From the NCBI GenBank assembly GCA_020055645.1, contig CM034547.1, positions 6,386,001 to 6,450,000 on the forward strand: DNA of 64,000 nt, read 5' to 3'. Shown piece after piece: positions 4,354-64,000 of the stretch. Position 1 is the stretch's first letter; every line of letters starts with the position of its first letter. Origin of the DNA: Tomocerus qinae (taxonomy: Eukaryota > Arthropoda > Collembola > Entomobryomorpha > Tomoceridae). Made by a program: the position numbers and the translations under genes. A model generated the notes under the pieces. The model saw only the letters and a list, made by a program, of their open reading frames with translations. It did no database searches and was not told the DNA's origin.

Positions 4354-7300
4354 ATGACATCCTATACAATTAAGGATTGTACTTTGACATGCAATCCGGT
4401 TGGAGTTGAAGAGACATATGATAAAACCGCATCAGAATATTTACAGGCAAAATGTGCTCAGCACATTGAAAATGGGAAAACTACTTGGACAGTAAGTTAC
4501 CAAATATTTCATAGCTAAATGCACAACTTTGGTATTGACAATTCAAACATCACAAATTTTGCTTAACTTAAGATGTGATTTTTGAAGATAGATTCCATAA
4601 CTGAAGAGTCGTACACATACTCACAATTTGAAGAATTGAGTAGAAATGTCGCAAGTGCGTTTTACAAACGAGGAATGAGAAAAGGAGATATTGTAATTTA
4701 TATGTGCTATGACATAGTAAAACTGCATATATTCTTCAATGGAGTTTGGAGAGCTAACGGAATACCCCACTCTCTCTATCCAGAAGAACTTGAGGGTAAA
4801 CGAACGATAGTTCCATTTCATTTTCGATAGATAAATTAAATAAAGAAAACATCATATATATAAACCAATAAAATAATAAACTGAATAGATTCGATACTTC
4901 GGACCGTGTTGAAAACAGAGGCGAAGTGGATCTATTGTGATCCTGACGAGGCCCCATTCTGCCTGGCTGTGGCAAAGAAAGTGAATTGGCCTTTGGAGGT
5001 AATCGTTACTAAATGTGAGGCTCCTGAGGGTTGTACATCAATCTATGAATTTTTACAAGATGATGGTTCAGGTAAGAATGTTATATAATATCAGGAATGA
5101 ATTTTTTGCTATTTATAATATTAAAACTTAGTATGTCACATTTTTATTATAGAATTTGATAAATATTTTATCTTTGAACAGAATGCCCTTGTTTGGAGAC
5201 AACCAAAGAGGATCCAGCATTGATATTGTGTACAAGTGGAACCACGGGCCCCAGTAAAGGAGCCGTTCACTCGCACGGAAGTCTAGTGCGATTTTGGCAG
5301 ATTGCTACATTCCAATATGACTTCTCTCCTGAAAAGATGTTATTTATTTGTAAAGGAACACATTTGAGCGGGTCGTTGATGGTGCTCTTTGCTTTTGTAG
5401 AGGGAAAAACATCCATAATCGTACCAAGAATTACACTGGAAAATGTTTTCCATGCTTTTGATAAGTACAAAGTAAGTAAATAGTAAATACTGATACTTGG
5501 ATTTATTCAGATACTTAAAAAGCCTAATCAAATTGACGATCATTAATACGCAATCAGAAATGCTACTGCTACATTACACTTGATGTGTATGCTTTTAAAT
5601 CTGCAGCCGGGATTTCTTTGTGCATTCCCCTCATTGATCATTTCCATTACAACTGACAGTCGCACAAAAACTATGGACAAATCTTGCGTCAAGTATATTA
5701 TGTCAGGTGGAACTAACCTGAAGTCGACATTTGAAAAGGATCTGAAAAAAGCGTTTATCAACCTTAAATACTTTAAAACGGTAATATGTCTGGTCCAGTG
5801 TACAAAATACCACTTACCAATGGTAAGTGGTTTTTAATGGTATTTAACGTTAAATACCACTACCTAAAAAGTAGTGGTAAGTGGTATAAATGGTAAAAAT
5901 AGTAAAAAATAGTTTCATTTAAATTTCGTGTTTGAATTTTGAATAAAATTCGGTGCCAAAGTATGAAATACCTTAGCAGATGATCATTGTTGTCACAAAT
6001 TGATAAGTGTTCATCAATCAGAGTAGGATTCAACTAATGAGGGTGCTAACAACCCTTGCCGATTGAGAAATTAATTGTAATTAAATTAGCATCAATTTTA
6101 AATGGGCGATACCAAATACAATCTTTCTTTCTTCATTCTTTTTATAACTTTTGGTGTACAATCAAATAAATATGATTAATTTAATTGATTAAGGGGCTAA
6201 TTGGAAACATTTCATACAAAATAATGTTTTAAAATTAATATTATAGGAAGTCTAGTTTATCCGTACTCAGCTGTCTAATCAATCGCTAAAATTTACCATT
6301 TTTACCATTAAATGCATTTTTACCATTAAGTGCATTTTTACCACTGTGATGGTAAAAAAGGCTAAAAAGTGGTAAATTTGTACACTGGTCTGGTCACATA
6401 TTTGACTAAACGATCCACTTTCGAATTGTATTTATTTGCAATTTTAGATATACGGTTTAACCGAAAGTGCACCAATAGTTGCATCATCATACAAACCGGA
6501 TGCCCTATCTTCCCACAAACAACATGAGGGTAATAACTAACATATCGATTTGACAGAAAGCAAAATAAAATGAATTTCACGAGAATTCAAAAATAATTAA
6601 TTGTAAAACGGAATAGGTATACCAGACGGAACAATAGGCAAGGTTTGTTGCTCTGTGTCTATTCAAATACGAGATGAAAATGGAGCTAAATGTTTGGGGC
6701 CTAATGAGGAAGGAGAAATTTGTGTCAAAAATTCAATGATGTTTTCATACTACTATAAACAGGAGGAGGTTAGCATTACAAATTAAACCAGTAAGATTTA
6801 TCCTTGTAAAATTCGTTCTCAGCTGATTTGTATTATACTCTGTTAAAACGACAACAAAACTGAATATCTATTTTTGTAGGAAACACGTAAAGCATTTACT
6901 AGTGATGGTTGGCTTCGTACGGGCGATATTGGTTATTATGATGAAAATGGATTTATATACTTTTCTGGTCGGCAAAAGGAGATGTTCAAGTGTTCTGGAA
7001 ATCACGTTAGCCATAGATATCAACAAATCATTAATCTGTCAATATTCGTGCCCAAAACGCTAATAATTATAATGACGTTACAACTTGTTTTAAAGGTTTA
7101 TCCTGCCCACATAGACGAAGTCATCAGCCAACATCCTGCCGTTGCTGATGTTTGCACTGTTGGAGTGGACGATCCTGAGGGAGAGAAAATGCCTAGGGCA
7201 TTTGTCGTATTGAAGCCAGGATGTACAGCCACTGCAGATGAAATAAAAGAATTTGCACACAGTAATTATTGCAATTTTAATCAATAGCTTCTTCCTAAAA

Positions 7301-7451
7301 CATCTGATTGCATTTTCTTCGTAATGATTTAGGGCTGCTGCCGACCTACAAACATTTGCGTGGTGGAGTTTACATTGTCGCGAGTTTGCCAAAGGTTTCC
7401 AGTGGAAAAGTTACACGTTATCTTGTTTCCCAACTCCCAATTCCAGAGTAA
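4354..7451 (+). CDS. ACS copy 2: ANL acyl-CoA synthetase / luciferase-like enzyme, 545 aa, ten exons
   Basis: Exons: 4354-4491, 4588-4795, 4889-5071, 5182-5471, 5607-5780, 6448-6529, 6617-6768, 6880-7005, 7096-7261, 7333-7451. They sum to 1638 nt in one open frame. Motifs: TSGTTGPSKG (about 194-203), IYGLTE (332-337), RTGD ending near 425, GRQKEMFK, and LPKVSSGK with its lysine at about 532. It groups with copies 3 and 4 by the exon-4 start (LETTK.DPA) and by the -PE C-terminus. Intron 5 (5781-6447) is far longer than in its relatives because it holds a complete MITE at 5796-6387. The donors of introns 7 and 8 are weaker (GTTAGC). An AATAAA lies about 45 nt after the stop. Role: ATP-dependent carboxylate activation; substrate unknown. 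Confidence 0.92.
5796..6387. mobile_element. Non-autonomous hAT-type MITE (592 bp) in intron 5 of ACS copy 2
   Basis: The element begins CAGTGTACAAA and ends with its reverse complement TTTGTACACTG. Imperfect inverted similarity extends to about 20 bp (TACCACTT on both ends). It is flanked by a perfect 8-bp duplication, GTCTGGTC, at 5788-5795 and 6388-6395. CAG-type termini with 8-bp target duplications are characteristic of the hAT superfamily. The subterminal regions carry many copies of TTTACCATT / GGTAAGTGG-like words, as expected for transposase-binding repeats. It has no transposase-length frame, so it would depend on an autonomous relative elsewhere. Confidence 0.88.
5838..5859. repeat. 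Perfect 22-bp palindrome inside the MITE
   Basis: A perfect self-complementary run centred on AACGTT with arms GGTATTTAA / TTAAATACC. It lies next to the left subterminal repeats of the element and could form a hairpin in single strands. Confidence 0.8.
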
Positions 7452-8225
7452 AATCTTGGCATTTTATATGATTGTCTTGATCCCCTTCTTTGGAAATAAA
7501 ACATGTTCTTGAATTATGTTATAATAATGATAAATATACCAATTTGTCTATTTTTATAATCGATTTATCATTAGAGGTCTTATATAGGCATCAGTAGTAT
7601 TATTATCACTTATCTTGATCAAAAATTAGAATAGGGACAGAAACACGAGTACAACTTATAACTCATGAAAATAGGATATGTCAGTAGTTGTTTAATTGCA
7701 TGATATCAACTATGGCCATGGCCATGAGGATAATAGAAAAGTGATAATCAAGTAATAAATAAAAAGATTATACAAAAAGGGACGAAAGTTTATAAGCATT
7801 TAATCTACTTATATCTTCATCAAACGTTTACTACATGTTACACATATACTGAAGGTCTATACTGAACCACATTTCGAGATTATGACTCAGCAATATCTTG
7901 ACAGGAGATATTATTATCAAAACATACATAGTTTGTATATTTAATACTAAAGAAACTACTGAAAGAAGTATAAACAACAGGTTACTGCAAATAGGACAAC
8001 CTAACTTTATATTATCATGATCCTTCCTCCCAACTCCCAACCAATAACATGCAATGACTGGAAAGTTATAAAATACAGATAACACGATACATCTACATCA
8101 TGAAACAAGTATTTATTTACGCACGAATGTTGTCCAGATCTTCCATGATGATCTAAGTAATAATTACACGTGAATATTTTGAATTCAGTTTTTTCTGCTG
8201 CTGCACGTAATTCGTTACTGCTATA
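7452..8225. other. Intergenic spacer between ACS copies 2 and 3
   Basis: It contains the AATAAA signal of copy 2 (near 7495). I see no supported gene; the 84-codon minus-strand frame at 7831-8085 has no recognisable feature. Confidence 0.45.
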
Positions 8226-11063
8226 ATGTCGACATCATTTTCAATAGAAGATTACACCTTGCGTTGCAACCAAGTAGGAATTGAAAGTCAATACGACAAA
8301 TCCGCCTCTGAATATTTACTGGAGAAATGCCGGCAGCATGTTCAAAATGGGAAAACTACTTGGACAGTAAGTTTCAATTATATTTTTGGGGAAAGCTATT
8401 TATTATGCTAGTTAAAATCGGTTTTTACTTTTTGGCTCACCTGAGTAAGGCATCTTTGATTGCATAAGTGAATAAAAACTTATTTCATCAGATATTATCA
8501 AGGGAGCTCTTTTACAGCAACATGCACATATAATATATCTGTTGCCTGTACTAAATTGAATCCCCTAAAAATTTGTAATTTTCATAGATAGATGCAATTA
8601 CTGGAGAATCCTTCACTTTCTCACAATTTGACGAATTGAGCAGAAACATCGCAAGTGCATTTTACAAACGGGGAATGAGAAAAGGAGATATAGTTGTCTA
8701 TATGTGCTATGACTTAGTGAAAGTGCATACATTCTTCAACGGAATTTGGAGAGCTAATGGAATACCCCGCTCTCTGTATCCAGAAGAACTCGAAGGTAAA
8801 TGAAATATAATTTTAGACAAAAATTACATATTTTTTTGGATTTTACAGATGCCTTAGAAAAGCTTCAATTTATAATTTTAAAAGTATACAATAGACACAC
8901 TTTCACACACTCTTTTGTATGAAATAGACTCAATCTTACGGACTGTCACGGAGTCAGAGGCTAAATGGATTTATTGTGGAAAAGATGAAGCTCCGTTGTG
9001 TCTATCGGTGGCCAAAAAAGTAAATTGGCCTTTGGAAGTCATCGTTAGTGAGCGTGAGGTTGTGGAGGGATGCACTTCTATTTATGAATTTTTAGAAGAT
9101 GATGGCTCAGGTAATTCGATACCTAATGATTTACACCTTCTATAAACTCTGCCACACCGTTTAAAATGCCCTACAAGTCAAAATTCGTTACTATTTGTCA
9201 AAAATGCCATTGTCAATGTATATAAATTGTTAGTTTGCATTAATTTTAACTTTTAGAACTTTTTAACATAAAAACTTTTAACTATCTGTGTAAAACTCAC
9301 ATACAGAGTGTCCAGCATTGGAGACAACTAAAGATGATCCAGCAATTATATTGTGCACAAGTGGAACCACCGGTCGTAGTAAAGGAGCTGTCCACTCTCA
9401 TAAAAGTGTCGTCAGGCACTGGCAGGCTATAGATTGTGTATACCCTTTATCAGAAAAGGTTTTATTCCTTACTAAAGCAGCTCATACCAGCGGCTCGTTG
9501 ATGGCACTTTCAACCCTATGTCAAGGAAAAACAATTATTACCGTGTCGAGGTTAACATTGGAAAATATTTTCCCAGCTTTTGACAAATACAAGGTATTAT
9601 GTCACTAAATCTGTCAGAAATTCCTTAAATTGCATCCCTTAAAAAGCCGCCACAAAAAGAACATGCTAATCGAAAGTATCTCTTTATATTGTTATTTAGC
9701 CTGGATTTATTTTTGGTTTTCCAAATTATATAATTTCTCTTTCAACCGACATTCGGACAAAGGATATGGACAAATCTTGCGTCGAGTATATCTTGTCAGG
9801 AGGGACTAATCTGAAATCGACATTTGAGACGGATTTAAAAAAGGAATTTGTCAACCTCAAATATCTTATAAATGTAACATGATCACCAAATCGTAAATCA
9901 AAAAATGTGCATTTAAAATTATGGTTATTTAAATTAATTTAATTGCTTCAAACAGATGTATGGATTGACTGAAAGCCTTCCCCTAATTGCAACAACTTAC
10001 AAACCAAATTCTATGTCATCTCACGCCGTGATTGATGGTAATTTATTCATATTTATAATTAGGTATAAAATAGCAAATTAATGCATTCATCATCACTTAC
10101 CTAGTCCAAAATTGTATTTTAAAAAGTTTATAAATATTTTCCTTACATTGTTTGTTTAGGTCTGCCATTCGGATCAATGGGTAAAGTTACCGGCACTGCG
10201 TCCATTCAAATACGGGATGAATCAGGGACAAAATGTCTGGGACCTAATGAGGAGGGGGAAATCTGTGCCAAAAATTCCATGATGTTTTCGGACTATTACA
10301 AACAACAAGAGGTCATAGCACCTTGAAAACTATATTATTATTTGTGGAAACAATATGGCTATTGTATATGTTCCTGTTGACTATATGTATCCATTCTAAC
10401 CAGATCCGCAATTCGTTAAAGCTTGTGCATATTTTCACAGGAATCACAAAAAGCATTTACTAAAGATGGATGGTTTCGGACAGGAGATTTTGGTTATTAC
10501 GATGAAAATGGCTTTTTATATTTCTTGGGGCGACAAAAGGAAATGTTCAAGAGTTACAGCAATCACGTTAGTCACAATGAGTCAATAAATATCTCAGTCC
10601 AACTTAGTAAAGTGCCTTGTTTCGGTAAATTCAATATTTTTGAACTGAATTAACGATGATTGCATTGATATTTTTGTTGTATACAGGTTTACCCTGCTCA
10701 AATCGACGAAGTAATTAGCAAACACTCTGCGGTTGCTGATGTTTGCACAATTGGCGTTGACGACCCAGCAGGAGAGAAAATGCCAAGGGCATTCGTCGTT
10801 TTGAAGCCAGGAAGCATTAGTACAGCAGATGAAATTAAGGAATTCGCTCACAGTAATAATATATAGAAAATCTTTATCAGATTTAATGTCCTGAATATTT
10901 GTACAGACATGGGAATTAATAAATAACTTCAATTTCAATTTCAGCCATGCTACCCACTTACAAATATCTGCGTGGCGGCGTTTACTTTGTGGAGAAGCTG
11001 CCGAAAGGCTCTAGTGGAAAAATAACTCGACTTCTTGTTTCTAAACTGGTAGTTCCAGAATAA
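8226..11063 (+). CDS. ACS copy 3: ANL acyl-CoA synthetase / luciferase-like enzyme, 545 aa, ten exons
   Basis: Exons: 8226-8366, 8588-8795, 8928-9110, 9307-9593, 9700-9873, 9956-10037, 10160-10311, 10441-10566, 10687-10852, 10945-11063. They total 1638 nt without a stop. Motifs: TSGTTGRSKG (about 195-204), MYGLTE at the start of exon 6, FRTGD in exon 8, GRQKEMFK, and LPKGSSGK near the C-terminus. It is closest to copy 4, with many identical codons and conserved flanking intron sequence. The donors of introns 7 (GTCATA) and 8 (GTTAGT) are weaker than consensus, but their positions match every other copy. An AATAAA occurs at 11305-11310. It should be an active ATP-dependent carboxylate-activating enzyme; substrate unknown. 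Confidence 0.92.
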
Positions 11064-24324: not shown

Positions 24325-27128
24325 AGGGCAATTATGTATAAACACTATTAAGGATTTTACTTTAAAATGCTATTCTTCTGTAAGCGACATCAGAGACAAA
24401 AATGTCTGCGAATATTTACTCGAGAAATGCTCGGATCATGTTGCAAGAGGAAAAACGACATGGACAGTAAGTAACGTCTAATTGTTGTAATTATTGACAT
24501 TAACAGTATATTAGATCATGTTTAATTTATTTAATTACAGATTGATACGATTTCTGGAGAATCTTTTACTTTCGCCCAGTTTGAAGTATTAAGCAAAAAT
24601 GTAGCTAGTGCCCTTTACAGAAGAGGATTGCGAAAGGGGGACATAGTAGTTTACATGTGTTACGATATTGTAAAACTTCACATGTTCTTCAATGGAGTCT
24701 GGAGAGCCAACGGAGTAATGAGGTCAATATATCCCGAGGAACTGGAAGGTATCCACGAAATAATTTTCATAGTAAAAAATTAACAGGAGGACTCTGTTGA
24801 AAGCGCCGATTCGCATTCTAGATTCAATTCTACAAACCGTTCTTGAGTCAAATTCCAAATGGATCTTGTGTGAAGAGTCTGGGGCATCTAAATGTCTTTC
24901 TATGGCTAAGAAAGTTCCTTGGCCAGTGGAAGTGATTACGATGGGACGAAATATAGAAGGAGTGTCTCAATCTACGATTTATTCCTGGATGATGGAAATG
25001 GTACACAATTTAAGTTTCAGAAATGGACAACCTTGCATACTTGGGTAGATTTTAAAATGCGTTCATGGTTTCCTTTAGAATGTCCTCCTTTGAAAACGAA
25101 AGGGGATGATATGGCGATAATATTAAGCACGAGTGGAACAACAGGTCGCAGTAAAGGGGCAGTTCATACGCACAAGAGTGTCATCGCCATGCTAGAAAAC
25201 CTTCCGATTGCAGTGCAAATGGGTCAGAGAAATTTATGTGTTAGCAGAGGAACGCATATTGGTGGAGCCATATTAGCCCTTGTTCCCTTGGCGGAGGGCA
25301 GCGTGGTGCTGTCAATGACCAATATTACATTTGAAAACATCTTTTCTGCTGTTGATTCTTATAAGGTTCATTTAAGCTAGTTTGATTCAAATACTAACTA
25401 AAAATAATATAGTGTGTTTGAAAAAATATGGAAAGACTTCTAAATGGATATAATATTCTATCTTTTAGCCTAGTTGGATATTTGCCTTTCCTACTTATTT
25501 ATTAGCGTTGGCCAACGATCCTCGAGCAGAAAACATTGACATGGAGTCATTTGAGTATATGTATTTTGGAGGAGCATGCATAAAGCCTTCATTTGAAGAA
25601 GATATCAGGAAGAAATGTCCCAAATTGAAGTACTTCAGTGGGGTAAAGCTAAACGGGCACATTCAAGTGAAACATTAATGAAAGTCGATATTGATTTATA
25701 TCTTCATTGATTTATCCAGCTTTATGGACTAACAGAATCTGTCCCGATCATAACAGCGGCACATAGACATGACTCTGAAGCTGTTATGACCATACTGAAA
25801 GGTATTAGTTGTAATTGAGTTGCTTTCTGCTGTATCTTAAGAAAATTTTGTGGTACAAAACATTAAAATACTGTAGTGAAGAGTATTTGAGTTGATTTAA
25901 TTTTGTTAACCATAAGATTTGCCAAGTGGGTCCATAGGAAAAGTTTCCGTAGGGGTTTCTGCACAAGTTCGTGGCGAGAATGGGAAAAAACTCCTTGGTC
26001 CTAACCAAGAAGGAGAATTATGCGTTAAAAATAACTACATGTTTTCTCAATACTACAAACAAGATGAGGTAATCAACTGAATATTATGTTATTATATTTT
26101 AGTACGATTTATATCAGTAGGAACTGAAACGCATTTTGCCTGCAAATACTGACACTTCTTCTTTATTTCACTATTGCAAATTCCAATTATCCATTGAAGC
26201 AGTTATGAAGTGAGAATTAGTTCTATTCTGTAACTCGGAAGTCTCGAAAAGTCTCCCCATGTTTTTGCACACATGTCATGTCAAATAAGCAATCAATACT
26301 GATGTAGATATGTTTACTTAAGCTTCCCTATGACGTCTTATTTGCAATCTATAGTCTAGACCTATGCTTTGGACTCTTTTCGTAGACTGTCTGAAGACTA
26401 GACTGTAAAGTATACAACTCTATAAAGAAGTTTCCGGTTCAAACGCACAATTATGGAAACCACCAAAATCATTGAAATTAAGCCATTATGACATATTCGC
26501 TCAGTTATACCTGTTATTTATCCAACAGGAAACTATAAAGGCATTTACTGAGGATAAATGGTTTCGAACAGGCGACATTGTCTCCTACGATGAAAACGGC
26601 TTTATTTTCTATTGTGGACGACAAAAGGAAATGTTCAAGTCTTTAGGAAATCAGGTAAAATAATGAAATACTTTCTAAAGTTTATTTACTTTTGCTTTAT
26701 CACTTTCTTTTGTTTTCAGATTGTCTTTCATGTGTTTAAGCAACTACTTTTTCTGTAATAGGTATTTCCTGTTGAAATTGATGAGGTAATCAGTAAACAC
26801 CCATGCGTTGATGATGTCTGCACTGTCGGAGTACATGATCCTGAGGGAGAGAAAATGCCAAGGGCCTTTGTCACTTTGAAATCCGGAGCTATTAGTACTG
26901 CAGACGAAATAAAAGAATTTGCACACAGTACGGTCATTTAATGCCTTATTGTGGTCACTAATTTATTTAATTTTATATTTTAGCCCTAATTAGTGCTGAC
27001 TTTTTATAGAAAATCTGCCTACTTACAAACATTTGCGTGGAGGACTCTATGTTGTTACAGACCTACCTAAAGGAGCAACCGGCAAAGTTAGTCGCATTCT
27101 TGTTGCGCAACTTCCGGTCCCGGAGTGA
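24325..27128 (+). pseudogene. ACS copy 7: start-lost, frameshifted synthetase pseudogene
   Basis: Exon equivalents: 24325-24466, 24541-24748, 24822-25000, 25079-25365, 25469-25642, 25720-25801, 25917-26068, 26529-26654, 26762-26927, 27010-27128. Three lesions are visible against copies 5, 6 and 8. The start ATG reads AGG at 24325-24327. Exon 1 lacks 2 nt near 24344. Exon 3 is 179 rather than 180 nt, with one base missing near 24961. No in-frame ATG rescues exon 1; the first available one is in exon 2. Exons 4-10 remain open, with P-loop TSGTTGRSKG, LYGLTE, FRTGD, GRQKEMFK and LPKGATGK, and all splice sites look intact. This suggests recent inactivation, or assembly errors if the read depth is poor. 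AATAAA at 27187-27192. Confidence 0.82.
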
Positions 27129-32517: not shown

Positions 32518-35326
32518 ATGATGAGAAAAATGACGGAAACATTTACTCTTCACGGTCCTGATTATGAAACAATATACAAAACTTTGCCGGAATGTTTGCT
32601 CGCCAAAGTAGATGAACACATTGCAAACGGAAAATCGACATACACGGTAAGAGAAAAAGAAGAATTACTCGTTCCAAATTATTTTCTCTATCATTCCCAA
32701 CAAATGCGAAATCAAAATTAGTCCAGGCATGAACCAATTAAAAACTAATCGAGAAATACAATTTATTGGATTATCTGGTTTTCATGTAAATGGTAATGAT
32801 TCAAAGATTGATGGAGTTTCCGGAGAATCCTTTACGTACCAGCAATATAAAGATCTGTCACGAAATTTGGCAAGTGGAATGTTTAAACGAGGGTTGAGAA
32901 AAGGTGACACAGTTGCTTACATGCAAATGGACATTGTGAAGTTGCAATTGATGTTTATGGGAATTTGGAGAGCCAACGGGAATGTGAGAGGGATTTATCC
33001 TGAAGAAATAGAAGGTACATGTACATAACTATCATCAAGCTACTTTCGATTTAGACGACTCATGTTTTAATATTCAACTTGAATTATAATTACAGGATCT
33101 GTTTTGGAAATTCTCCTTGAATCTAAAGTGAAATGGTTATTTTGCGAATCTTCCGTATTAGAAGTTTGTGCATCAGCTGCCAAAAACGTTCCATGGAAAG
33201 TAGAAATTATCATTTTAAGCCGGACACCTGTGCACGGTCACATTTCTATTTACGACTTGTTCGAAGATGATGGAAAAGGTAATATATTAGGCCTAAATAA
33301 ATGAATTACATTTAATCAAGGATGTATAGAGGGATGGGCTTCCAAAATCCAAGAAAAGGTCAATTTTTTCTCAAAACAGCAAAAAAATTTTCGCTCCGCG
33401 CAATTATATTATTTGCCATTTCTAGGCCATTTTTTTACTCATTTTCGTTAAAAAATGCCAAAAATTGTCGTGTCACGCTCGAATATATATAGTTAAAATT
33501 TGTATTCAAGTCTTGGCCCCCCTGAAACTCAGTTCTGTATACGTGCTTGCATTTTATATACCTATTTATATTATATTAATTATAATTTGTGCATGGTCAC
33601 TACAAAAATTAGAGTGTCCAGACTTGGAGATTGGACCCGAAGATCCGGCACTATTGATTTCCACAAGTGGAACAACGGGTCGCTGCAAAGGAGCTTTATA
33701 TCTACATAAAGAGATGGCTACTGCTTCATCCTTTGGAGGTTGGGTATTCCCTTTCATTGAAAATAAACCTAACTTTATTCTTGGTAAAGCTCCTCACATC
33801 AGCGCTGTCTCCGTCCTAATGATATTATTGTACGAAGGAAAAGTTTCCCTTGTTATTCCACAACTAACGAATGAAAATATCCTGAAAGCTGTAAAAAGCT
33901 ACAAGGTTTGTGAATTTAAAAAATGTACGTTTACTTTATAACTCATAATTCATGATAACTGACAAAAAGTTTTTTTGTTTTACAGCCAAGCTTTATTTTT
34001 GGATTTCCTGCATTGCTTGTGCCACTTGTCAATGATAACACAATTGAACAGTTTGACAAACACTGTATTGAGTCCATAATAACAACTGGAACTACTATAG
34101 ATCCCTCTCTTGAAGGACAGCTGAGAAGCAAACTTCCAAATCTCAAGAATTTCGGGATTGTAATTTTTATCAATGCATTTAATTTGCGTTAATTTTCCCT
34201 AAAACTTGAAAAACTTGCCATGATAAATGAGATTTTGGATTTTGACTAACAATTCTGATTTTATTAATAATTTTTGAAGGGATACGGTGCTACGGAGTGT
34301 GCACCTATATCAATGCCTTTTGGGAAAACGAAATCATGTGATGAAATTACCAAGTTCCCAGGCAAGTAAAGTAAAAAAAATTGAGATTAGTGACATTTCT
34401 ACATTGTACATTAGTATTTCTGCATGTGGGATAGTAAAAGATTATGAACGTTTGAGTAGCATTTGAATTTATAATTTAAAGGTTATCCTCCAACATCTAT
34501 GGGAAAGCTGTGCCCAGGAACTTCTCTGCAAATTAGAGATGCAGAGACTGGTATCTTATTGCGACCTGGTCAAGAAGGAGAAATCTGTATAAAGAGTGTC
34601 ATTATGTTCAACAAGTATTTTCAACAGCCTGAAGTAAGGAATGCAAGTGTTAATCAAAATATGAGTTGTTAGTGAAGTGATTTTAAAAATGAATATAAAA
34701 ATGACACAGGAGACTAAAGAAGCATTTACATCTGATGGATGGTTTAAAACTGGAGACACAGGATATGCGGACGAAAATGGATTTTTGTTTCATGGAGGAA
34801 GAATCAAGGAAATGTTTAAGTGTTCAGGAAATCATGTAAGCATCTAAAACCAAAGAATAAACATTTTCGGAATATTTGAATCTTTATTGAAAATGAATAT
34901 TTTAAATATCTTTGTCCGTGGTCGAAATCAGGTTTACCCTTCACAAATAGACGAAGTGATTTTTAAGCACCCCGCAGTTCAACAAGTTTGCACAATCGGG
35001 ATACCAGATCCCAATGGAGGCAGTGAGAAAATTCCTCGGGCTTTTGTCACACTGAAACCAGGAGAATCAGCATCACCAGAAGAAATTCAGAACTTTGCTC
35101 ACAGTACGCTTAATATTTAATGCCTGATTGAATATATTTATAAACTGGCAATTTTTTAAAACTATATTGTAATTTTTTGTACGCAGAAAATCTTCCCTCG
35201 TACAAACATTTAACAGGTGGGCTTTACATAATGCCCGACCTTCCTAAAGGACCAACGGGGAAAATTACTCGTCACCTCGTGGCCAAAATGTACAACAATC
35301 CTTCCACGATTCCAAATAATAAGTAG
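32518..35326 (+). CDS. ACS copy 9: divergent ANL acyl-CoA synthetase-like enzyme, 552 aa, ten exons
   Basis: Exons: 32518-32646, 32807-33014, 33096-33278, 33613-33905, 33986-34159, 34280-34361, 34482-34633, 34710-34835, 34932-35103, 35187-35326. Together they make 1659 nt, open. Three in-frame ATGs (32518, 32521, 32530) could start the protein. The P-loop reads TSGTTGRCKG, with cysteine where the other copies have serine. Later motifs are YGATE, FKTGD, GRIKEMFK and LPKGPTGK. Intron 6 appears to use a GC donor (AG then GCAAGT at 34362), because only that junction keeps the 82-nt exon 6 and the phase. Intron 3 (334 nt) contains foreign-looking sequence. The last exon is extended and ends NNK. 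It is probably active; substrate unknown. It is more distant from copies 2-8 than those are from each other. Confidence 0.88.
33310..33560. mobile_element. Probable transposon fragment in intron 3 of ACS copy 9
   Basis: This intron is three to four times longer than the same intron in the other copies. Its middle has a different texture: GCTCCGCGCAATTATATT, GTCGTGTCACGCTCG and CTTGGCCCCCCTGAAA. Such words are common near ends of dispersed elements. I see no terminal repeats or target duplication, so the family and limits are guesses. Confidence 0.35.
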
Positions 35327-47080: not shown

Positions 47081-47377
47081 ATGGCTTTTATTTATCCATC
47101 GTATATGCCAGCCTATGGTTTAGGCTATGGTGGCTATGGCTATGGTGGTGGCTTTGGAATGGATTACGAAGTTGGCCTGGGACTGGGTCTTGGACTTGGA
47201 TATGGTGGATATGGAGGATATGGTGGATATGGATATGACGGATATGGTGGATATGGCGGATATGGATACTACGGAGGTGGCTTTCTGGGGATTTGCCTCA
47301 TTATCTCTTTCTTTTTAATTGTTGCATTTATTATTATATTCACTACTAAAATGGACGATAATTTTTTTCAACGATGA
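47081..47377 (+). CDS. GY gene copy 1: glycine/tyrosine-rich small membrane-anchored protein, 98 aa
   Basis: Single-exon frame. It begins MAFIYPSYMPAYGLGYGG, followed by GGFGMDYEVG, a GLGLGLG stretch and repeated GGYG units (to about residue 65). A hydrophobic C-terminal segment (LGICLIISFFLIVAFIIIF) could insert in a membrane. There is no N-terminal signal peptide, so a tail-anchored orientation is likely. Compared with copy 3, one extra base after TTK removes the stop and adds a short tail ending NFFQR. A TATA box lies 60 bp upstream. The function is unknown. Gly/Tyr repeats occur in structural, adhesive and antimicrobial-type proteins, but I cannot choose among these. Confidence 0.8.
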   Translation: MAFIYPSYMPAYGLGYGGYGYGGGFGMDYEVGLGLGLGLGYGGYGGYGGYGYDGYGGYGGYGYYGGGFLGICLIISFFLIVAFIIIFTTKMDDNFFQR

Positions 47378-47556
47378 ATACTACAAAACTGGGAGCCTGT
47401 CTGTACGATGCTCTCCTAAACAAAGTTGTGATCGTGATACTGTAGTACGAATTTACATGTCTATTACATTCTTTAAGATCACAGAGCAATTGCATACCAA
47501 TTAACCAATTTGTTGCATATTCATATTTAATTGTATATGTTTTTATTTGATTGCAG

Positions 47557-47634
47557 TCAGAAGCTCTTTCTCTAGAAGAAGTAGAAAAGCATTTCTCTGT
47601 AGCGCTAGAAGCCTTAATTCATGACCACGAATGA
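47557..47634 (+). other. Candidate 3' exon with a 25-codon frame after GY gene copy 1
   Basis: A strong acceptor-like sequence (TTTTTATTTGATTGCAG) precedes a short frame beginning SEALSLEEVEKHFS and ending in HDHE stop. The same frame survives after copy 3 (49527-49601) with a clean 3-nt deletion, but is shifted after copy 2. I could not identify a matching donor, so it could be an alternative exon, a 3' untranslated exon or chance. Confidence 0.3.
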
Positions 47635-48045
47635 ATACAATTTCATATAATGTTATGTCGGAAACCGATTTGTAAAAATTCAAAATACAAGACCAGTTAG
47701 GAACAGGAAGTCTGTTATAATTAAATTCTTACGTTTATTTCTTACTGATGCTTACCAAAGAACTTAGACTACGTTTTATTAGAGCATGATTATCTAAATC
47801 GCCAATTGATACCCAGACAACTATACCGTCATCATCCTATCCAACTCCCCAAGTAATAATAATAAAAAATATTTGAATTTGCCAATGTAAGAATAGTATT
47901 GCTATCTCATTTAGTAGCTACGAAGTGAACGGTTTTGCGGCTGATATTATTGCAACTGTTGGGATTTCAAGAAGTAATTCAAAGTTATAAAGCATGTTTC
48001 GAAAAGGCTAAATAATTTCAAACCGCAAATGAGAAAGATTCCCCC

Positions 48046-48375
48046 ATGGCTTTTATTTATCCATCGTATATGCCAGCCTATGGTTTAGGCTACGGTGGCT
48101 ACGGCTACGGTGGTGGCTTCGGAATGGATTACGAAGTTGGCCTGGGCCTGGGTGTTGGACTTGGATATGGAGGATATGGCGGATATGGTGGATATGGCGG
48201 ATATGGTGGATATGGCGGATATGGTGGATATGGCGGATATGGCGGATATGGCGGATATGGATACTACGGAGATGGCATACAGTGTTGCCATCAAGGCTGT
48301 GGTTTTGTGGGGGCTTGTCTCATCATCTCTTTCATTTTAATTGTTGGATTGTTTTTTATATTCAGTATGAAATGA
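48046..48375 (+). CDS. GY gene copy 2: glycine/tyrosine-rich small membrane-anchored protein, 109 aa
   Basis: Same N-terminus as copy 1 (MAFIYPSYMPAYGLGYGG, then MDYEVGLGLG). The GGY repeat is the longest of the four, about ten GGY units in a row. Just before the hydrophobic tail it has CCHQGC, and another cysteine at the start of the tail. Such membrane-proximal cysteines could be lipid-modified or form disulfides. It ends FSMK. The repeat DNA alternates GGATATGGC and GGATATGGT, so other frames are also open; only this frame shares its N- and C-termini with all copies. Confidence 0.8.
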   Translation: MAFIYPSYMPAYGLGYGGYGYGGGFGMDYEVGLGLGVGLGYGGYGGYGGYGGYGGYGGYGGYGGYGGYGGYGYYGDGIQCCHQGCGFVGACLIISFILIVGLFFIFSMK

Positions 48376-49031
48376 ACGATTATTGTTTCAACGATGAATA
48401 CTACAAAACTGGGAATCTCTGCCTGTACGATGCTCTTCCAAAGTTATGATGGTGATATTGCAGTATGAATTTAATGTTTATTCTATTAGAACACATTGTA
48501 ATTGAATACCGATTTATTGCATATTTATATTCATTTGTGTGTTTTTATTTGATTGCAGAGTCAGAAGCTCTTTCTCTAGAAGAAGTAGACGCATGTCTCT
48601 GTAGTGCTAGAAGCCTTAATTCATGACCACGAATGAATACAATTTCACATAATGTTATGTCGGCAACCGATTTGTAAAAATTAAATACAAGACCAGTTAG
48701 GAACAGGAAGTCTATTATAATTCATGCCTTTATTTGCTACTGATACTTACCAAAGAACTTAGACTACGTTTTATTAGAGCATGATTATCAAAATCGCCAA
48801 TCAATACCCAGACAACTATACCCGTCATCTTCCTATCCAACTCCCCAAGTAATAATAATAATAAAAATATTTTGCCAATAAGAAATTATTGCTATTTCAT
48901 TTAGCTACGAAGTGAACGGTTTTGCGGCTGGTATTATTGCATTTGGTGGGATGTAAGCAAATCAAAGTTATACAAAGCATTGTTTCGAAAAGTCTAAATA
49001 ATTTCAATCCGCCAGTGAAAAAGATTCACAC

Positions 49032-49328
49032 ATGGGTTTTATTTATCCATCGTATATGCCAGCTTATGGTTTAGGCTACGGTGGCTACGGCTACGATGGC
49101 TACGGCTACGGTGGTGGCTTTGGAATGGATTACGAAGTTGGCCTGGGACTGGGTCTTGGACTTGGATATGGAGGATATGGTGGATATGGATATGACGGAT
49201 ATGGTGGATATGGATATGACGGATATGGCGGATATGGATACTACGGAGGTTGCTTTCTGGGTGTTTGCCTCATTATCTCTTTCTTTATAATTACTGTTGT
49301 ATTTATTATTATATTCACTACTAAATGA
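49032..49328 (+). CDS. GY gene copy 3: glycine/tyrosine-rich small membrane-anchored protein, 98 aa
   Basis: Starts MGFIYPSYMPAYGLGYGG, with a second-residue Ala-to-Gly change. An extra YDGYGYGG element comes before GGFGMDYEVG. The repeat region mixes GGYG with YDGYG units. The C-terminal hydrophobic segment (LGVCLIISFFIITVVFIIIF) ends TTK stop. The promoter block has TATACAAAG in place of TATAAAG. The function is unknown, as for the other copies. Confidence 0.8.
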   Translation: MGFIYPSYMPAYGLGYGGYGYDGYGYGGGFGMDYEVGLGLGLGLGYGGYGGYGYDGYGGYGYDGYGGYGYYGGCFLGVCLIISFFIITVVFIIIFTTK

Positions 49329-50006
49329 ATAATTATTTTTTTCAACGATGAATACTACAAAACTGGGAGCCTGTACGATGCTCTCCTAAACAAAGTTGTG
49401 ATCGTGATACTGTAGTACGAATTTACATGTATATCACATTCTTTAAGATCACAGAGAAATTGCATACCGATTAACCAATTTATTGCATATTCATATTTAA
49501 GTGGAAATGTTTTTATTTGATTGCAGTCAGAAGCTCTTTCTCTAGAAGTTGAAAAGCATTTCTCTATAGTGCTAGAAGCCTTAATTTATGACCACGAATG
49601 AATACAATTTCACATGTTATGTCGGTAACCGATTTGTAAAAATTTAAAATACAAGACCAGTTAGGAACAGGAAGTCTATTATAATTTAATTCATACGTTT
49701 AATATTCACTGTTGACACTCCTTGGACTATAGTACGTTTTATTAAAGCATGGTTATCAAAATCGGCAATACCCAGACAACTATACCCGTCATCTTCCTAT
49801 CCGTACTCCCCAAGTAATAACAATAAAACATATTTGAATTTACCTATTAGAATATTATTGCTATCTCATTTAGCTACTGAACGGTTTTGCGGCTGGTATT
49901 GTAGTATTATTGCAATTGGGATGTCAAGAAATAAATCAAAGTTATACTAAAGCATTGTTTCGAAAAGTCTAAATAATTTCAATCCGCCAGTGAAAAAGAT
50001 TCACAG

Positions 50007-50312
50007 ATGGCTTTTATTTATCCTTCGTATATGCCAGCTTATGGTTTAGGCTACGGTGGCTACGGCTACGGTGGTGGCTTTGGAATGGATTACGAAGTTG
50101 GCCTGGGACTGGGTCTTGGACTTGGATATGGTGGATATTGTCCCGGATATGGCGGATATTATCCCGGATATGGTTACGGCTATGGATATGGTGGATACTA
50201 CGGAGATGGCCTGCTCTGTTGCACTCAGGGTAATCAAGGCTGCGTCTATGTGACGGTTTTTATTTTTATCGCCTTCCTTGGAATTGTTGCATTTATTTTT
50301 ATACTGCTCTAA
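50007..50312 (+). CDS. GY gene copy 4: glycine/tyrosine-rich small membrane-anchored protein, 101 aa
   Basis: The N-terminus is identical to copies 1 and 2. The repeat region is more diverged, with CPGYGGYYPGYGYGYGYGG in place of simple GGYG units. It carries LLCCTQGNQGC before the tail, similar to the CC..GC motif of copy 2. The hydrophobic tail (YVTVFIFIAFLGIVAFIFIL) ends at the stop. Its downstream flank differs from the others and has an AATAAA at 50420-50425, so it is probably the outer copy of the array. Confidence 0.8.
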   Translation: MAFIYPSYMPAYGLGYGGYGYGGGFGMDYEVGLGLGLGLGYGGYCPGYGGYYPGYGYGYGYGGYYGDGLLCCTQGNQGCVYVTVFIFIAFLGIVAFIFILL

Positions 50313-55309: not shown

Positions 55310-58300
55310 ATGGCTTGTTTGCGGAAACCGAGAGTGAGGGCAGAGAGCACAAACCTCGACCAACAAAAGTTATTATCTAATGGAGACACGTTGGAAAGAT
55401 CACTTCCAGGATTTCTCCTCCAGGAAGCTGCACAGCATGCCAATTCGGGAAAAAATAATTGGATGGTACACTTCCTTCTTTCTATTCATAAATATTCTAT
55501 GTAAAAAATATAGTTTTTTGCGTATTCACATATCATTGCGTAAAAAATGATTGTCAATCAAAGAAGTTGATAGCAGCGTCAGATCATCCTATACTTGCAA
55601 TACAATGTGCAGTATGTTATACAGGATGGGAAATGATGTATCTATAAGGAGGAGACTTTTGAAACTATTTTTTGTATTTGATAAAGATACCTAAATCTAA
55701 TCTAATCTCATTGTAAATATCATTTTTTACAACTTCCTTGTGATTTCTATCAGCCTCTGACTCATTTTAAACCACAGGAAATTATTTGTGTGTACAGATC
55801 AATGCTGTGACAGATGAAGGAGTTAGCTTTTCAGATTTCGATCGTCTAAGCCGAAATGCTGCAAGTTGGCTCTGTAAAAAGGGAATTAGTAAAGGTGATT
55901 GCGTATGGGTTTCCTTATCTGCCTCAGAGAGACTTCATTGTGTACTCAATGGAGTGTGGATTGCTAATGGAGTCGTCAGATCCGCTTTCCTTGAAGATGC
56001 TTCAAGTATGTACCGTTTTCTATTTCCAATATTTATTACCTATGATTATGATGCACTTATTATACGTCTACTACTAGTATAATGCCGAGCAAAATATATT
56101 GTCATATGTATTGTATCTGAATTAGCACATTTTTTAGCGAAGTGACAATGGTCGTTGTAATAATTCATCCTTTCGCATCTACTTATGAGTACACGAAAAA
56201 AGTTGCTAAATAGGATTTGCATAAGTAATTTGTACGTGTGCTTAGTGAAGTGAAACAATCTCGCAGAGAGATTACCTTACGTAATACCAGAACTAACGTA
56301 GCTGAAAAAATTATCTTCAATCTTTTAGCCTAAGCTCAATAAAATTAATCTTGTAACAATGATGAAAGAATCTGGTTTTTGTGCTGCTGTAGGTAAATGT
56401 GTGATTAATAATTGTTCATGGTTTGTTTGTACACAAAAATAAGTATCTGCTGCATTATTCATTAATTTAACTTGTAATTCCAGTGTCCAGAGTCTGATTC
56501 TTTGTTTGCATTTATACATTTAGCAATGAACGAAGGAGCTGTTGTGGAGAAACTGAAGGAATTGAAAATCAAGATGATTTTTTGCAATCTAACAAATGCT
56601 GCGTTTTATCTGAGTGTGGTCTTGAAGGTCGACTGGCCCATCTACATCCTAACCAATGGAGATCAACAGGGATGTGTTTCGCTTAGAGAATTATTTGAAG
56701 ATGATGGACTCGGTGAGCTTTACAATCAGCAAAAAGCATGACACCATCAGATTCTTTTTATTTATCTTTTGGAAATCAATCCTTGTGATATGAGTTTTTT
56801 AATTTTAATAGTTCTATTTATAAGTGTAGGGTAGGGTATGGATATTTATTTCATGTAAATTGAATGTTTGTTATTTTTGTGGTAGTGTAGATGTACCTGC
56901 ATTGGAAATGATGCCTGAAGACCCAGCGCTGATGTTTTCATCTGTGACTTCCTCGTCCACTGACATCGTGCATTCTCACAAGGCTGTTATCTCAATGATC
57001 AAGAATTTCGTCGAGTTTATCCCTTTTCATGAGCGACCTTTACTAATCAGTTCAAACTTAACTCACGTTATTGGTGTGCTTTGTCCTTTGACTTTGCTCT
57101 TTTCTGGGAGAACTGGACTTATGATTCCTAAACCGGAGAGAAGAGACTTGAAATCTGTATCTAGACTCACGCAAAAGTATTTACAGAAAACCATCGACAA
57201 ATATCAAGTGCAATTTACTATAATAATGAGTAGTATTATGAAATCCTTGAATGGCATTGCAATAAAGTGTACTAATTACTGTATTTTGTAGCCAAATGCC
57301 ATAATTGGTCTTCCTTACTCATTAGATTGGATTTGTAAGACGGAATTAATGGACTTTAGTTCCATAGAATATATCTATACTGGAGGAGGTCCCAAATCAA
57401 CAAATTTTTCTCAAGTTATCAAATGTCTTCCCAACTTGAAGAGAAATGTGACTGTAAGTTTTCAATTAATGACACAGCTGATATCTATACAGAAAGAGAT
57501 AAACAATTTTTTCATTCCTAGGGATATTGGCTGAAGGAGTTTGGAATCGTGGCTTGTAATTCTTACTTCAATGAAAAAGATGGTATAAACTTATTTCCTT
57601 GTTTATGAAAGTCATAACTGAAGTACAAACACTTATGTACAAAAGTGCATGCATGAGTGGTCATTATCAAGACTTATCTTTTCTCCAGATGGATAATAAT
57701 GTGCTTTGCATCATTTTGTAAACATGCAGGTGTGCCATTATCTTTGTTTGCCGCTGGAAAACCTTTGCATGATATCTCAGTTGAAATTCGTGGTATAAGG
57801 ACAAAAGATCCCGTAGGGCCAAATGTTAAGGGAGAAATCGTCGTACGATCTGACATTTCATCTGTGTGCAAAACAAACAAAGTATAATTTTAAGCTTCCG
57901 CGTATTAAATTATGTGTACATATAGAAGAGAATATAATTTGCATAATGTGTATGATGTACCTAAAGAAATGTGTTTGATTGTTATTAGGGTGAATCTGCT
58001 GAAATATGGTCTTCAACTGGCGACCTTGGCTTTTTAGACGCTCATGGCATCCTTCATGTCACAGATTCCATTCAAGACATCATAAAATATAAGAAACATC
58101 ATTACGTACGACCATATAGATATTTTAATTAGAAATTAATTGCTGAAGATTATTTACAGGTCATATGAATGATTAATTCTCATCCATCCATCACAAATAC
58201 AATAGAATAATACTCTCTGTCTGATTTACAAATAGATATTCCCCTCTGAGATTGAAGATGCTTTAGCTCAATATCCTGGTGTGATTGAAGCCTGTGTCTT

Positions 58301-58622
58301 GAATACATCTAACAATGATAAGCACAATGTTATTACCGCAGTCAAAGTGTCTCCACAGGCAAATATTGACGAAGCCGATTTGATTGATTTTACTAAAAAA
58401 CTTTATGGTAAAAAATTATTCAATTCTGTCAAAGATGTCTTCAAAATAATTTTTGCATATTAAAAATGATTTTTTTGTGTTGTAGTCCAACTCGATTACG
58501 ATCCTACAGAGCTTGAAACAAATATTATCTTTGTCGAAGATTTACCAAAAGAAAAATCTGGAAAATTCTCCAGGGAATTGATCGCTTTGATGATCTCAGG
58601 GCAGAGCAATAATGAACCATAA
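55310..58622 (+). CDS. ACS copy 10: synthetase-like pseudoenzyme lacking the ATP-binding loop, 556 aa, ten exons
   Basis: Exons: 55310-55465, 55798-56005, 56524-56712, 56891-57207, 57292-57453, 57522-57582, 57730-57881, 57989-58105, 58236-58407, 58486-58622. All nine introns are GT-AG at the family positions and phases, and the 1671-nt frame is open. Exon 2 is still 208 nt and exon 7 still 152 nt. The P-loop is gone: where others have TSGTTGRSKG, this reads SSVTSSSTDIVHSHK. The YGLTE motif has become YWLKEFG. The hinge GRxKE reads DSIQDIIKY. STGD and the C-terminal PKEKSGK remain. An intact frame with an erased nucleotide site suggests a retained non-catalytic role rather than decay. Introns are longer than in copies 1-9. 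AATAAA at 58700-58705. Confidence 0.85.
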
Positions 58623-59623: not shown

Positions 59624-60364
59624 TTAAAAAGTTTCGTCCATATAAATTTTTTCACATTTACAAAGTAACTTTAGATTGTTCTCAGCTCCTGAAATCTTCA
59701 TTCTGGCAAATAATATTAGATGGATTATAATATGTGCATTATTGCGGTTCAAAATATAATATAATTTAATTTGCTTTAATGCTGACCAAAAAGCGATTTT
59801 CCGTGTTGCCATCCCACAAAACGAAGTTCTCTTCATCTTTAGACAGCCGTAAGTTATCATTAAGATCAATTTCTGAACTATTTTTTGGAGACTTCGGTAG
59901 CACATTCCGTCTAAAGCATGTTAATGTATGACGCAACGATGAATATTGGGGCATTTCTGGACAAATTTCAACTGGAACTGGTTCAAGCTCTTTCCGTATA
60001 TTTAAATTATCAGCAAAATATTTAACTATCGCTATGTGAAACCATGTACATATACTTAATTTAAAGCTTGTTTAAAATTGCTTACCTTTAATAAATGTAA
60101 AACTACTCTCTCTATTATTTCGGATCCATGCGTATGTAGGCTTTGGTCTCTTTCACTTATGAGTAAATTATTTCCAGTAATTAAATCAACCTGACAATCT
60201 GATTGGCACTTCCAATACCGCACATTTCCTGCCAAACTGATTTTGTGTTTCGATATATTGTCATTAAAAATTAACAAGCTGCTCCCTATTCTTCCTCTTA
60301 AAAAATAAAATTGTTTACTATCCATATTAAAATAAATTATTTTAACTGATCTACGAAATTTCAT
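59624..60364 (-). pseudogene. Decayed FLYWCH / MULE-type transposase N-terminal region
   Basis: Read on the minus strand in three pieces. First, from ATG at 60364, a FLYWCH-type zinc-finger pattern: FYFLRGRIGSS, then YWKCQSDC, then LHTHGSEI. Second (about 60030-59766, another frame), a linker resembling that of MULE-associated proteins: LRHTLTCFRRNVLPKSPKN, then DEENFVLWDGN and ENRFLV. Third (about 59697-59624), ISGAENNLKLL and IYMDETF, recalling the first catalytic Asp region (MDGTF) of MULE transposases, followed at once by a stop. The second and third pieces could be joined by a short intron, but the first and second do not join in phase. No downstream transposase domain is seen. It is best read as a truncated relic; a domesticated FLYWCH gene is the alternative. 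Confidence 0.6.
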
Positions 60365-61473: not shown

Positions 61474-64000
61474 ATGGATTCATATAATAATGAAGAGAAG
61501 AAAGCTGACAAAATTTTCCACAGTTCATCTGAATACGATTTCGAACTTCCAGTAGAATGGACTGTTTTAGAATATATTTTGCGAAAAACTGAAGACAACA
61601 CTGCAAAAGGAATTACCGCCTCCATTGTAAGTTTTCAAAAGCATTCCTTTATACAGTCATATATCATTTACTCCCTAAATTATTATTTTATTTACTAAAT
61701 TAGACAAATTCGAATACAACTGAAACATGTAACTTTACGAATGTGGAAGAGATAGCTGAGAAAATTGCTAGCGCTTTGTATAAAAGGGGAATGCGTAAGG
61801 GAGACACGTTGATTTACTCATCACATCATGGGACAAAGTTGCATTTGTTTTTTCTTGGAGTTTGGAGAGCTAACGGAATTGTCCGCTCTTCCTATCCGGA
61901 AGACACTGGAGGTTTGTTGACTCGGTTCAAATATTTTTTTTACAACAATGATGTTCATATCGATGGATAATTAAATTAATGCAATGATATAATCTATTTA
62001 ACAGAAACTTTAACAGAGCGAATAATTGAATCAAAAGCTCGGTGGTTTTTATGTGACGAGAGCCACGCCTACGAAGTCATTTCTGCATCAAAGAAACTTC
62101 CATGGCAAATGAATATCATAGTATTTGGTCAGGCCGATGGTTGCGTCTCGGCAGAAGACATTTTATATGACGATGGACTCAGTAAGTACATTCTAGTTGC
62201 TAAAAGTAGTCAAAAAATAAAATAATAGAATTGTCACTTTGTCACCACATTCATTAAATAATAATTTATGTTCTAATGTATTCAGATATTCCATCTCTTG
62301 ATATTGGACGGGAAGATGTGGCGCTAATTTTGCCTACTAGTGGAACTTCTGGCGCAAGTAAGGGAGCTGTCTATACCCATGAAAATCTTTTGAAAAACAT
62401 TGTCGCATTTGAACATTTTCCATTCACTGACTCTGATGAACATGAAAAACCATTTTTGATCACATCTAAACTAACACATTTCACCGGATGCGTCATTCCA
62501 TTCTCATTCATTGCCAGAGGTCGTAGAATATATTTCATGCCGCATGTGACAGTAGAAAACGTTTTGGAAACTATCGACGAATTCAAAGTATGGAAATAAT
62601 AAGCATCTTTATGCCTTTTTAAACCCGTCAATTAGGAAGTTATATTTAAATTTTTTTCCACTAGATTTATGGCTTGTTTAGCTTTCCCAAATATATTACT
62701 GGGATCATCAACCATCCTTCAGCCAGGAGTTATAATTTGTCGTCACTTACTTACGTTACCACAGGCGGTCAAACAGTTACTCCCACAATGAATGCCGTTG
62801 TTAAAAGACTGAAAAGCATTCGCAATTTTTTGATTGTAAGTAATTATAGACAATTTTGTCAGAAAAATTATTAGCATTTCTTCATTGCGAGTTGAGTTTT
62901 GAATTTTTGCTCAATTTTATTACAGTTGTATGGAATGACAGAAGCTGGGTTACTAACCGCCACTGTGAATTGGAGCCTGGAATCTACTGGATGTTACAAA
63001 TCTCTAGGTATTTAACAAGAAAATATGTAAATCGAAACTAAGTCATCATGAGAAAAGATTATTTATCTTCTCATTTTAAGAAAACATGAACATGTTTATA
63101 ATTTGCGTGTAAACATTTTCAGAATATCGACCTTTCACTGTTGGAACCTTACCCCCTGGGAGTAGCTTGCAGGTCATAGATTTAAAAACTGGATGTCCTC
63201 TCGGCCCTGGAGAGAAAGGCGAATTGTATTTCAAAACACCTTTCAGTTGTTCAGAGTATTTTCGTCGGCCAAAGGTAAAATTGCCCACTACACAGTTTTG
63301 AGTAACAATAATTTTAAATTGTATTTAATTTATTTACATTTTAATTACCGTTCCAATCTATTGTAGGAAACCGAAGAAACTTTTCATAATGGCTGGCTAC
63401 GCACAGGAGATGTTGGCTACGTTGACAAAGATGGATTTATTTTTTTATTGGATCGGGCAAAGGAAATATTTAAATATTTTAACAATCACGTATGTTATAT
63501 GGTTCTTTAGTTTTCTAATTGAAAATAAATGTAGATAAAGAATAAGCGAACACACTAAAAGTACCCCCTGCACCATATGATTATTTTATGTGGTTAGTTT
63601 TTGATTTATAAGTTCACCAACCTGGGGGTGCGGGAGGTTCAAGAGGTGCATTTTAGCGTGACAATAAATTGAAAAGCAATCTTTTGATACAGGAAGCTTA
63701 AATATTCAGAATACAAAGAGCTCATTAAGCCTATTTTTGTTACAGATATCTCCCAGTGAGTTGGAAAATGTCCTTTTGCGTCATCCAGACGTGGTCGAGA
63801 CTTGTGTTGTCGGTGTTCCAGATCCAGATGGAGGAGATTTTATTCCCAGAGCATTTGTGGTGCTTAGGAAGTCCTCACAGGCAAATGTTGAAGAGATAAA
63901 AAAGTTTTTCAACTGTAATTAATTGTTCATTATTTTTACTTTAAATATTCTAAAAAATATTTTGCTACAAACTTTTCTGCCAATAGATGAAAATATAATT
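61474..64000 (+). CDS. ACS copy 11: divergent ANL acyl-CoA synthetase-like enzyme, 3' end beyond window
   Basis: Exons: 61474-61626, 61704-61911, 62005-62181, 62286-62587, 62665-62835, 62926-63007, 63123-63274, 63367-63489, 63746-63914, and 63987 to the window end. Phases match the other copies, and exons 2, 6 and 7 keep 208, 82 and 152 nt. Motifs: [10 protein letters not shown] (the P-loop has GTSG for GTTG), LYGMTE, LRTGD and DRAKEIFKY. The last exon, with the C-terminal lysine, is cut after about five codons. Exon 4 is 302 nt, with an insertion near TDSDEHEK. The N-terminal part of exon 2 ([13 protein letters not shown]) is quite unlike the ITGESF words of other copies. It is probably an active enzyme if the missing end is intact. 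Confidence 0.85.

Follow-up and report, generated by a model that had tools for sequence, protein, structure and literature searches.

Pseudoenzymes are well known among kinases, phosphatases and proteases. An instructive case is that of the sperm leucyl aminopeptidases (S-LAPs) of Drosophila: according to the available text of PMC3078892, a large group of these proteins is without catalytic residues, and the mean dN/dS in its two clusters is 0.12-0.14. The S-LAPs resemble the gene considered here, copy 10 of an array of acyl-CoA synthetase genes in the collembolan Tomocerus qinae, in that a duplicated enzyme family has lost catalytic residues while dN/dS is low; they differ in belonging to another enzyme family, and in that expression and presence of the protein have been shown for S-LAPs, whereas copy 10 is known from sequence alone. 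The arrays of beetle luciferase and luciferase-like acyl-CoA synthetases, as described in the available text of PMC10798137, likewise arose by tandem duplication with functional divergence of single copies, but there the new function is catalytic, whereas copy 10 has lost its ATP loop. Pseudoenzymes are a known kind of protein, and the pattern seen here has its parallel in the S-LAPs, outside this family. Among the acyl-CoA synthetases themselves, a search by titles and the beginnings of abstracts, in a coverage that leaves out most subscription journals, gave no direct precedent for a pseudoenzyme; the available text of PMC4899746 and PMC9342972 describes no ANL protein stripped of its ATP motifs, and the DIP2 domains retain theirs.

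In active relatives, the A3 loop holds the phosphates of ATP and the A10 lysine contacts the alpha phosphate; A7 and A8 are in touch with the ribose, and A5 serves to position both ATP and Mg (PMC8388817, in the text available). A table in that source, in which the enzyme is unnamed, reports that single changes in the loop reduce activity by factors of 4 to 2,000 according to the position, that the change of Pro168 abolishes it, and that change of the A8 Arg lowers it 100-fold.

The window (the whole stretch of DNA analysed, 64,000 nucleotides, C2:6386001-6450000 of a genome of 334 Mb in 115 contigs) contains eleven acyl-CoA synthetase copies, all on the + strand, with ten modelled exons in each of copies 1-10; the exon models of the array are homology-based, without transcripts. 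Two further copies, L029 and L030, lie past the right edge. We consider it likely that copy 10 is a pseudoenzyme, kept by selection with its ATP loop lost. Three of its neighbours are needed for comparison:

24341..27125, + strand: copy 7, motif-complete, with a one-base deletion in exon 3 and, judged by eye, an apparently lost start codon
28787..31414, + strand: copy 8, motif-complete, with a four-base insertion in exon 2
61492..63919, + strand: copy 11, next in the array, with its P-loop intact, cut by the end of the window

Copies 7 and 8 are the reverse of copy 10: their motifs are complete and their frame is broken. By eye, their insertion and deletion lie outside homopolymers. Intron 6 of copy 9 has an apparent GC donor (GCAAGT) at 34362 instead of GT. 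Four small Gly/Tyr-rich open frames lie about 970 bases apart at 47081-50312, with nearly identical starts (M[AG]FIYPSYMPAYGLGYGGYGY...), each with one hydrophobic stretch close to its end, and without a match in a Pfam search; a minus-strand frame at 60059-60364, between copies 10 and 11, has a weak FLYWCH zinc-finger match (17.6 bits, below the cut-off). Elsewhere in the genome (G000 C1), the loci L001, L002 and L004-L007 have open frames of 2,375-2,456 residues with apparently two AMP-binding domains each, and by these domains alone resemble non-ribosomal peptide synthetases in a eukaryote genome.

To model copy 10, its protein was read by hand and aligned, with splicing, to the window, and each exon was compared with those of the ten other copies:

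55310..58622, + strand: gene of copy 10, with 556 codons in ten exons, and TAA (spliced alignment, paralogue comparison, Pfam AMP-binding and AMP-binding_C)
55310-55465, 55798-56005, 56524-56712, 56891-57207, 57292-57453, + strand: exons 1-5
57522-57582, 57730-57881, 57989-58105, 58236-58407, 58486-58619, + strand: exons 6-10
57522..57582, + strand: exon 6, which has 82 bases in copy 5 and 21 fewer here, frame kept
58620-58622, + strand: stop codon TAA
58700..58705, + strand: AATAAA, candidate polyadenylation signal read from the sequence, 78 bases 3' of the stop

The sequence-only reading had described 556 codons open over ten exons with every splice site kept, and its coordinates and codon count were right: there is no internal stop, and all nine introns are GT-AG, at positions homologous to those of the other copies in the array. 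Two donors are weak (GTGCAA at 57208 and GTACGA at 58106), and copy 5 has similarly weak ones (GTCCTC and GTGACG). Exon lengths differ between copies 10 and 5 in eight of the ten exons (exons 6 and 8 being shorter in copy 10), and all eight differences are multiples of three; among the intron gaps of close copies this holds for 2 of 11, a small sample from overlapping pairs, so that the in-frame differences of the exons are more than would be expected by chance. Copy 10 matches both Pfam profiles of the family: AMP-binding (PF00501) with 92.5 bits (cut-off 29.9) over residues 56-406, and AMP-binding_C (PF13193) with 31.2 bits (cut-off 24.5) over residues 459-538. It also matches known ANL acyl-CoA synthetases, namely 4-coumarate:CoA ligase (3a9u, 5bsm), beetle luciferase and Drosophila CG6178 (7kyd), the 4-coumarate:CoA ligases being its best relatives of solved structure (E 9e-27). 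Judged from both profile matches, and from an exon-intron structure which is common to the motif-complete copies of the array, copy 10 is by descent a member of the ANL superfamily.

Like other ANL acyl-CoA synthetases, copy 10 matches both profile families and has the TGD, the A5 Glu and the A10 Lys; unlike them, it has no P-loop, has other residues for the Thr of A5 and for the Arg and Lys of A8, and has lost near-invariant residues of the C-terminal domain. The motif sites, all assigned by alignment, are as follows:

56938..56970, + strand: A3 phosphate-binding loop site, SSVTSSSTDIV in place of STSGTTGRSKGAV, two codons fewer
57525..57539, + strand: A5 motif, YWLKE for YGLTE, Thr changed to Lys, Glu kept
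58016..58024, + strand: A7 motif TGD, kept (as STGD)
58064..58078, + strand: A8 motif, DSIQD for (G/D)RxKE, near-invariant Arg (now Ser) and Lys lost
58560..58565, + strand: A10 Gly-Lys, kept (Lys538), in active relatives the lysine on which adenylation chiefly depends

With the P-loop of copy 5, STSGTTGRSKGAV, as reference, both near-invariant glycines and the Lys are gone from the loop site (SSVTSSSTDIVHSHK of copy 10 occupies 56938-56982, a position counted by hand like that of YWLKE), which bears out the claim that the ATP-binding loop had been replaced. Copy 10 thus fails the A3 pattern [T/S]SG[T/S]TGxxKG of active adenylate-forming acyl-CoA synthetases; it lacks the A8 Arg, and it has the A7 (S/T)GD and the A10 Lys. 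Among the 26 modelled copies (11 in the window and 15 elsewhere, leaving out the other AMP-binding exons of the genome), the pattern SG[TS][TS]G followed by Lys is intact in 25, the exception being copy 10. The change of YGLTE to YWLKEFG had been read correctly as a string but is milder than it appeared: the superfamily motif, aromatic-(G/W)-x-(A/T)-E, permits Gly or Trp at the second position (Table 2 in the available text of PMC8388817), and since the Trp is allowed and the Glu retained, only the change of Thr to Lys is off-consensus.

Conservation was scored in one alignment of copy 10 with 24 other sequences, in which 45 columns are near-invariant. Copy 10 keeps 28 of these (0.62), the lowest share among the 25 sequences; among the other 24, leave-one-out shares begin at 0.63 (the outgroup L046) and 0.75 (L030) and reach 1.0. 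Of the 17 lost columns, four belong to the loop (Thr, two Gly and Lys), one is the A5 Thr, one a Tyr that follows A6, two are the Arg and Lys of A8, one is the Arg of VWRAN, and eight fall in the C-terminal domain. Copy 10 retains one loop Ser, the Glu of A5, GE and TGD, as well as the lysine that follows A8 and the Gly-Lys-x-x-Arg of A10; by the alignment it also retains an A4-like His. General relaxation would also give such a low share. A loss confined to the nucleotide site is unsupported, as the C-terminal domain is affected as well. Of the earlier claim that the nucleotide site was lost, the part concerning the loop stands, but TGD, the A5 Glu, the A10 Lys and the A4-like His remain, and because part of the site is retained, residual ATP binding by copy 10 is possible. 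Another divergent copy, L030, in which positions 6900-10000 constitute copy 13 of the array, has Cys instead of the Gly that follows the loop Lys, carries inserted residues downstream of the A8 region, and may be a second copy drifting from catalysis.

The residues that remain bear on the foremost alternative, that copy 10 is still an enzyme, with a Ser/Thr-rich SSVTSSSTD loop and a reaction that is slow or of another type, such as hydrolysis of acyl-AMP or a CoA or ester chemistry independent of adenylate, served by the kept TGD, Glu, His and Lys. The loop has hydroxyl side chains still, and change of the loop Lys alone costs the tabulated enzyme only 4-fold; however, glycines, A5 Thr and A8 Arg changed singly cost 14- to 1,000-fold each (PMC8388817, table in the available text). 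In copy 10 the losses come jointly: the loop is without its two near-invariant glycines and its Lys, A5 is without its Thr and A8 without its Arg and Lys, and residues of the C-terminal domain are missing as well. By analogy, copy 10 combines many changes each of which singly lowers activity in the tabulated enzyme, which we take to be 4-chlorobenzoate:CoA ligase. We regard continued catalysis as unlikely.

The earlier reading had proposed a dN/dS test on the copy 10 branch, and this was carried out with paralogues from the window's own genome, in a codon model of 24 sequences and 509 codons. The family omega is 0.119; on the copy 10 branch dN/dS is about 0.05-0.09, with a grid-dependent upper bound of about 0.15-0.2, and as dS on this branch is saturated (about 6), omega is bounded from above only. 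Setting omega to 1 on the branch is 21.5 log units worse, and this value is rejected: the main tree gives an LRT of 43.0-43.3, and a tree in which copy 10 stands beside copy 11 and L029 gives 44.6, whereas the maximum LRT in 200 simulations at omega = 1 was 10.0. Among 24 terminal branches, that of the frameshifted copy 7 has the highest omega, 0.40, as expected of a decaying gene; that of the frameshifted copy 8 is 0.25, which intact copy 5 has as well, and where the break is recent the contrast is therefore weak.

The omega of the branch averages the time before and after the loss of the loop and is thus silent on selection after the loss; the length of a possible unconstrained phase was therefore estimated. 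If the copy 10 branch is given a late neutral phase that exceeds about 0.2 substitutions per site, the fit worsens by more than 2 log units. With the base composition of introns, the probability that no stop arises is 0.34, 0.12 and 0.0055 at 0.01, 0.02 and 0.05 substitutions per site; that of neither a stop nor a frameshift is 0.054, 0.003 and 6e-7 at the same neutral distances, with a frameshift rate taken from only 11 intron gaps per 82 substitutions in 550 aligned bases of close copies in overlapping pairs. At 0.05 neutral substitutions per site, the probability of at least 17 changes in the 33 loop bases is 3e-12, and that of at least 24 base changes behind the 13 near-invariant losses outside the loop is 2e-10. 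No length of neutral evolution accounts for the open frame and the motif losses together, and hence the frame was maintained during the loss of the motifs or afterwards. Had the loop been swapped in one event, its 17 changes would be no clock, but the 13 losses elsewhere would still be one. This neutral-interval argument supports the view that purifying selection kept the frame of copy 10 during or after the loss of the ATP loop, and the expectation that random decay would break the frame held up, as a neutral span sufficient for the motif losses would almost surely leave a stop or a frameshift.

A somewhat less likely alternative than continued catalysis is that copy 10 is a very young pseudogene, a former pseudoenzyme or fast-evolving enzyme that died too recently to have acquired stops. 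The data are compatible with neutral death within the last 0.01 or so substitutions per site; the array neighbours 7 and 8 are frameshifted, and copy 10 is indeed fast-evolving, with 1.5-1.6 amino-acid substitutions per site on its branch where copy 11 has about 0.5. However, the motif losses are much older than such an interval, and copies 7 and 8 show that local decay brings early frameshifts. We prefer to see copy 10 as a retained pseudoenzyme.

Its descent was examined by comparison with the other members of the family. Copy 10 is 27-31% identical to the other copies of the window over the protein, and its best-scoring non-self match in the genome (C1:130690-132079) is 30-31% identical, with single-exon matches of up to 43%. 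Of 43 placements of copy 10 compared by the AU test, 18 attach it to the clade of copies 1-9 and L036 or put it within that clade, and every one of these was rejected; 7 elsewhere are in the confidence set. This means that copy 10 is no recent dead duplicate of these genes; an origin as a recently decayed duplicate of copies 1-9 is excluded by this test. Its sister is copy 11 in a tree of 11 sequences (bootstrap 97); with the outgroup included it sits at the base of the tree, and without the outgroup it groups with L033, L035, L040 and L041 (support 53). Copy 10 is an old, separate lineage of the family.

In comparison with each single one of 24 paralogues, at least 17 of the 33 P-loop bases of copy 10 differ, and for all ten paralogues tested of the 24 available, its loop bases are no nearer to the paralogue loop than shuffled bases are. 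A compensated frameshift as the origin of the changed loop was ruled out, since a P-loop is read in none of the frames of the loop region, and its DNA has no similarity left to the ten paralogues; it is possible that the loop was swapped by a single replacement event. The remaining alternative, an artefact of assembly or gene model in which the loop lies in a missed exon (the refuting case named by the sequence-only reading) or exon 4 was misread, is very improbable: the exon-level models do rest on homology, but tblastn with copies 5 and 10 on both strands (E < 0.5) gave no second P-loop exon between copies 9 and 11, only exons of copy 10 itself matching between 35.3 and 61.5 kb, exon 4 is open and continuous with DPALMF and VHSHK as flanks, the same bases give no P-loop in other frames, and the first 38 bases of copy 10 have one exact match in the genome.

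Because its frame was preserved by selection though the ATP loop is gone, copy 10, as a retained pseudoenzyme, is probably a functioning protein with a non-enzymatic role. It would fold as a two-domain ANL protein, would not carry out ATP-driven adenylation at a useful rate, and may bind a ligand (fatty acid, AMP, acyl-adenylate or CoA) in the old acyl/AMP cleft; alternatively, it may pair with an active paralogue of the same array. With the grip on the phosphates and the A8 Arg gone, and A7, the A5 Glu and A10 kept, the best guess is a protein that binds an AMP-like or acyl ligand and does not turn it over. The aspartate of A7, the glutamate of A5 and the lysine of A10, all retained, would fit an AMP-like moiety without the beta and gamma phosphates, which a P-loop would hold. 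This last step, the binding of a ligand with an AMP-like moiety, is the weakest of the explanation and is offered tentatively. More speculative again, and improbable as it stands, is the idea that copy 10 could be a ligand sensor which still binds AMP or acyl-adenylate but has no hold on the triphosphate end of ATP, and which would thus monitor or buffer what its array neighbours make, rather than make it itself; the kept ribose Asp, Mg Glu and A10 Lys are its basis.

An ANL member which has the fold and the frame but no ATP loop would provide a test of what ANL proteins do without catalysis, and the motif-complete paralogues that lie alongside copy 10 would be the controls for such tests.
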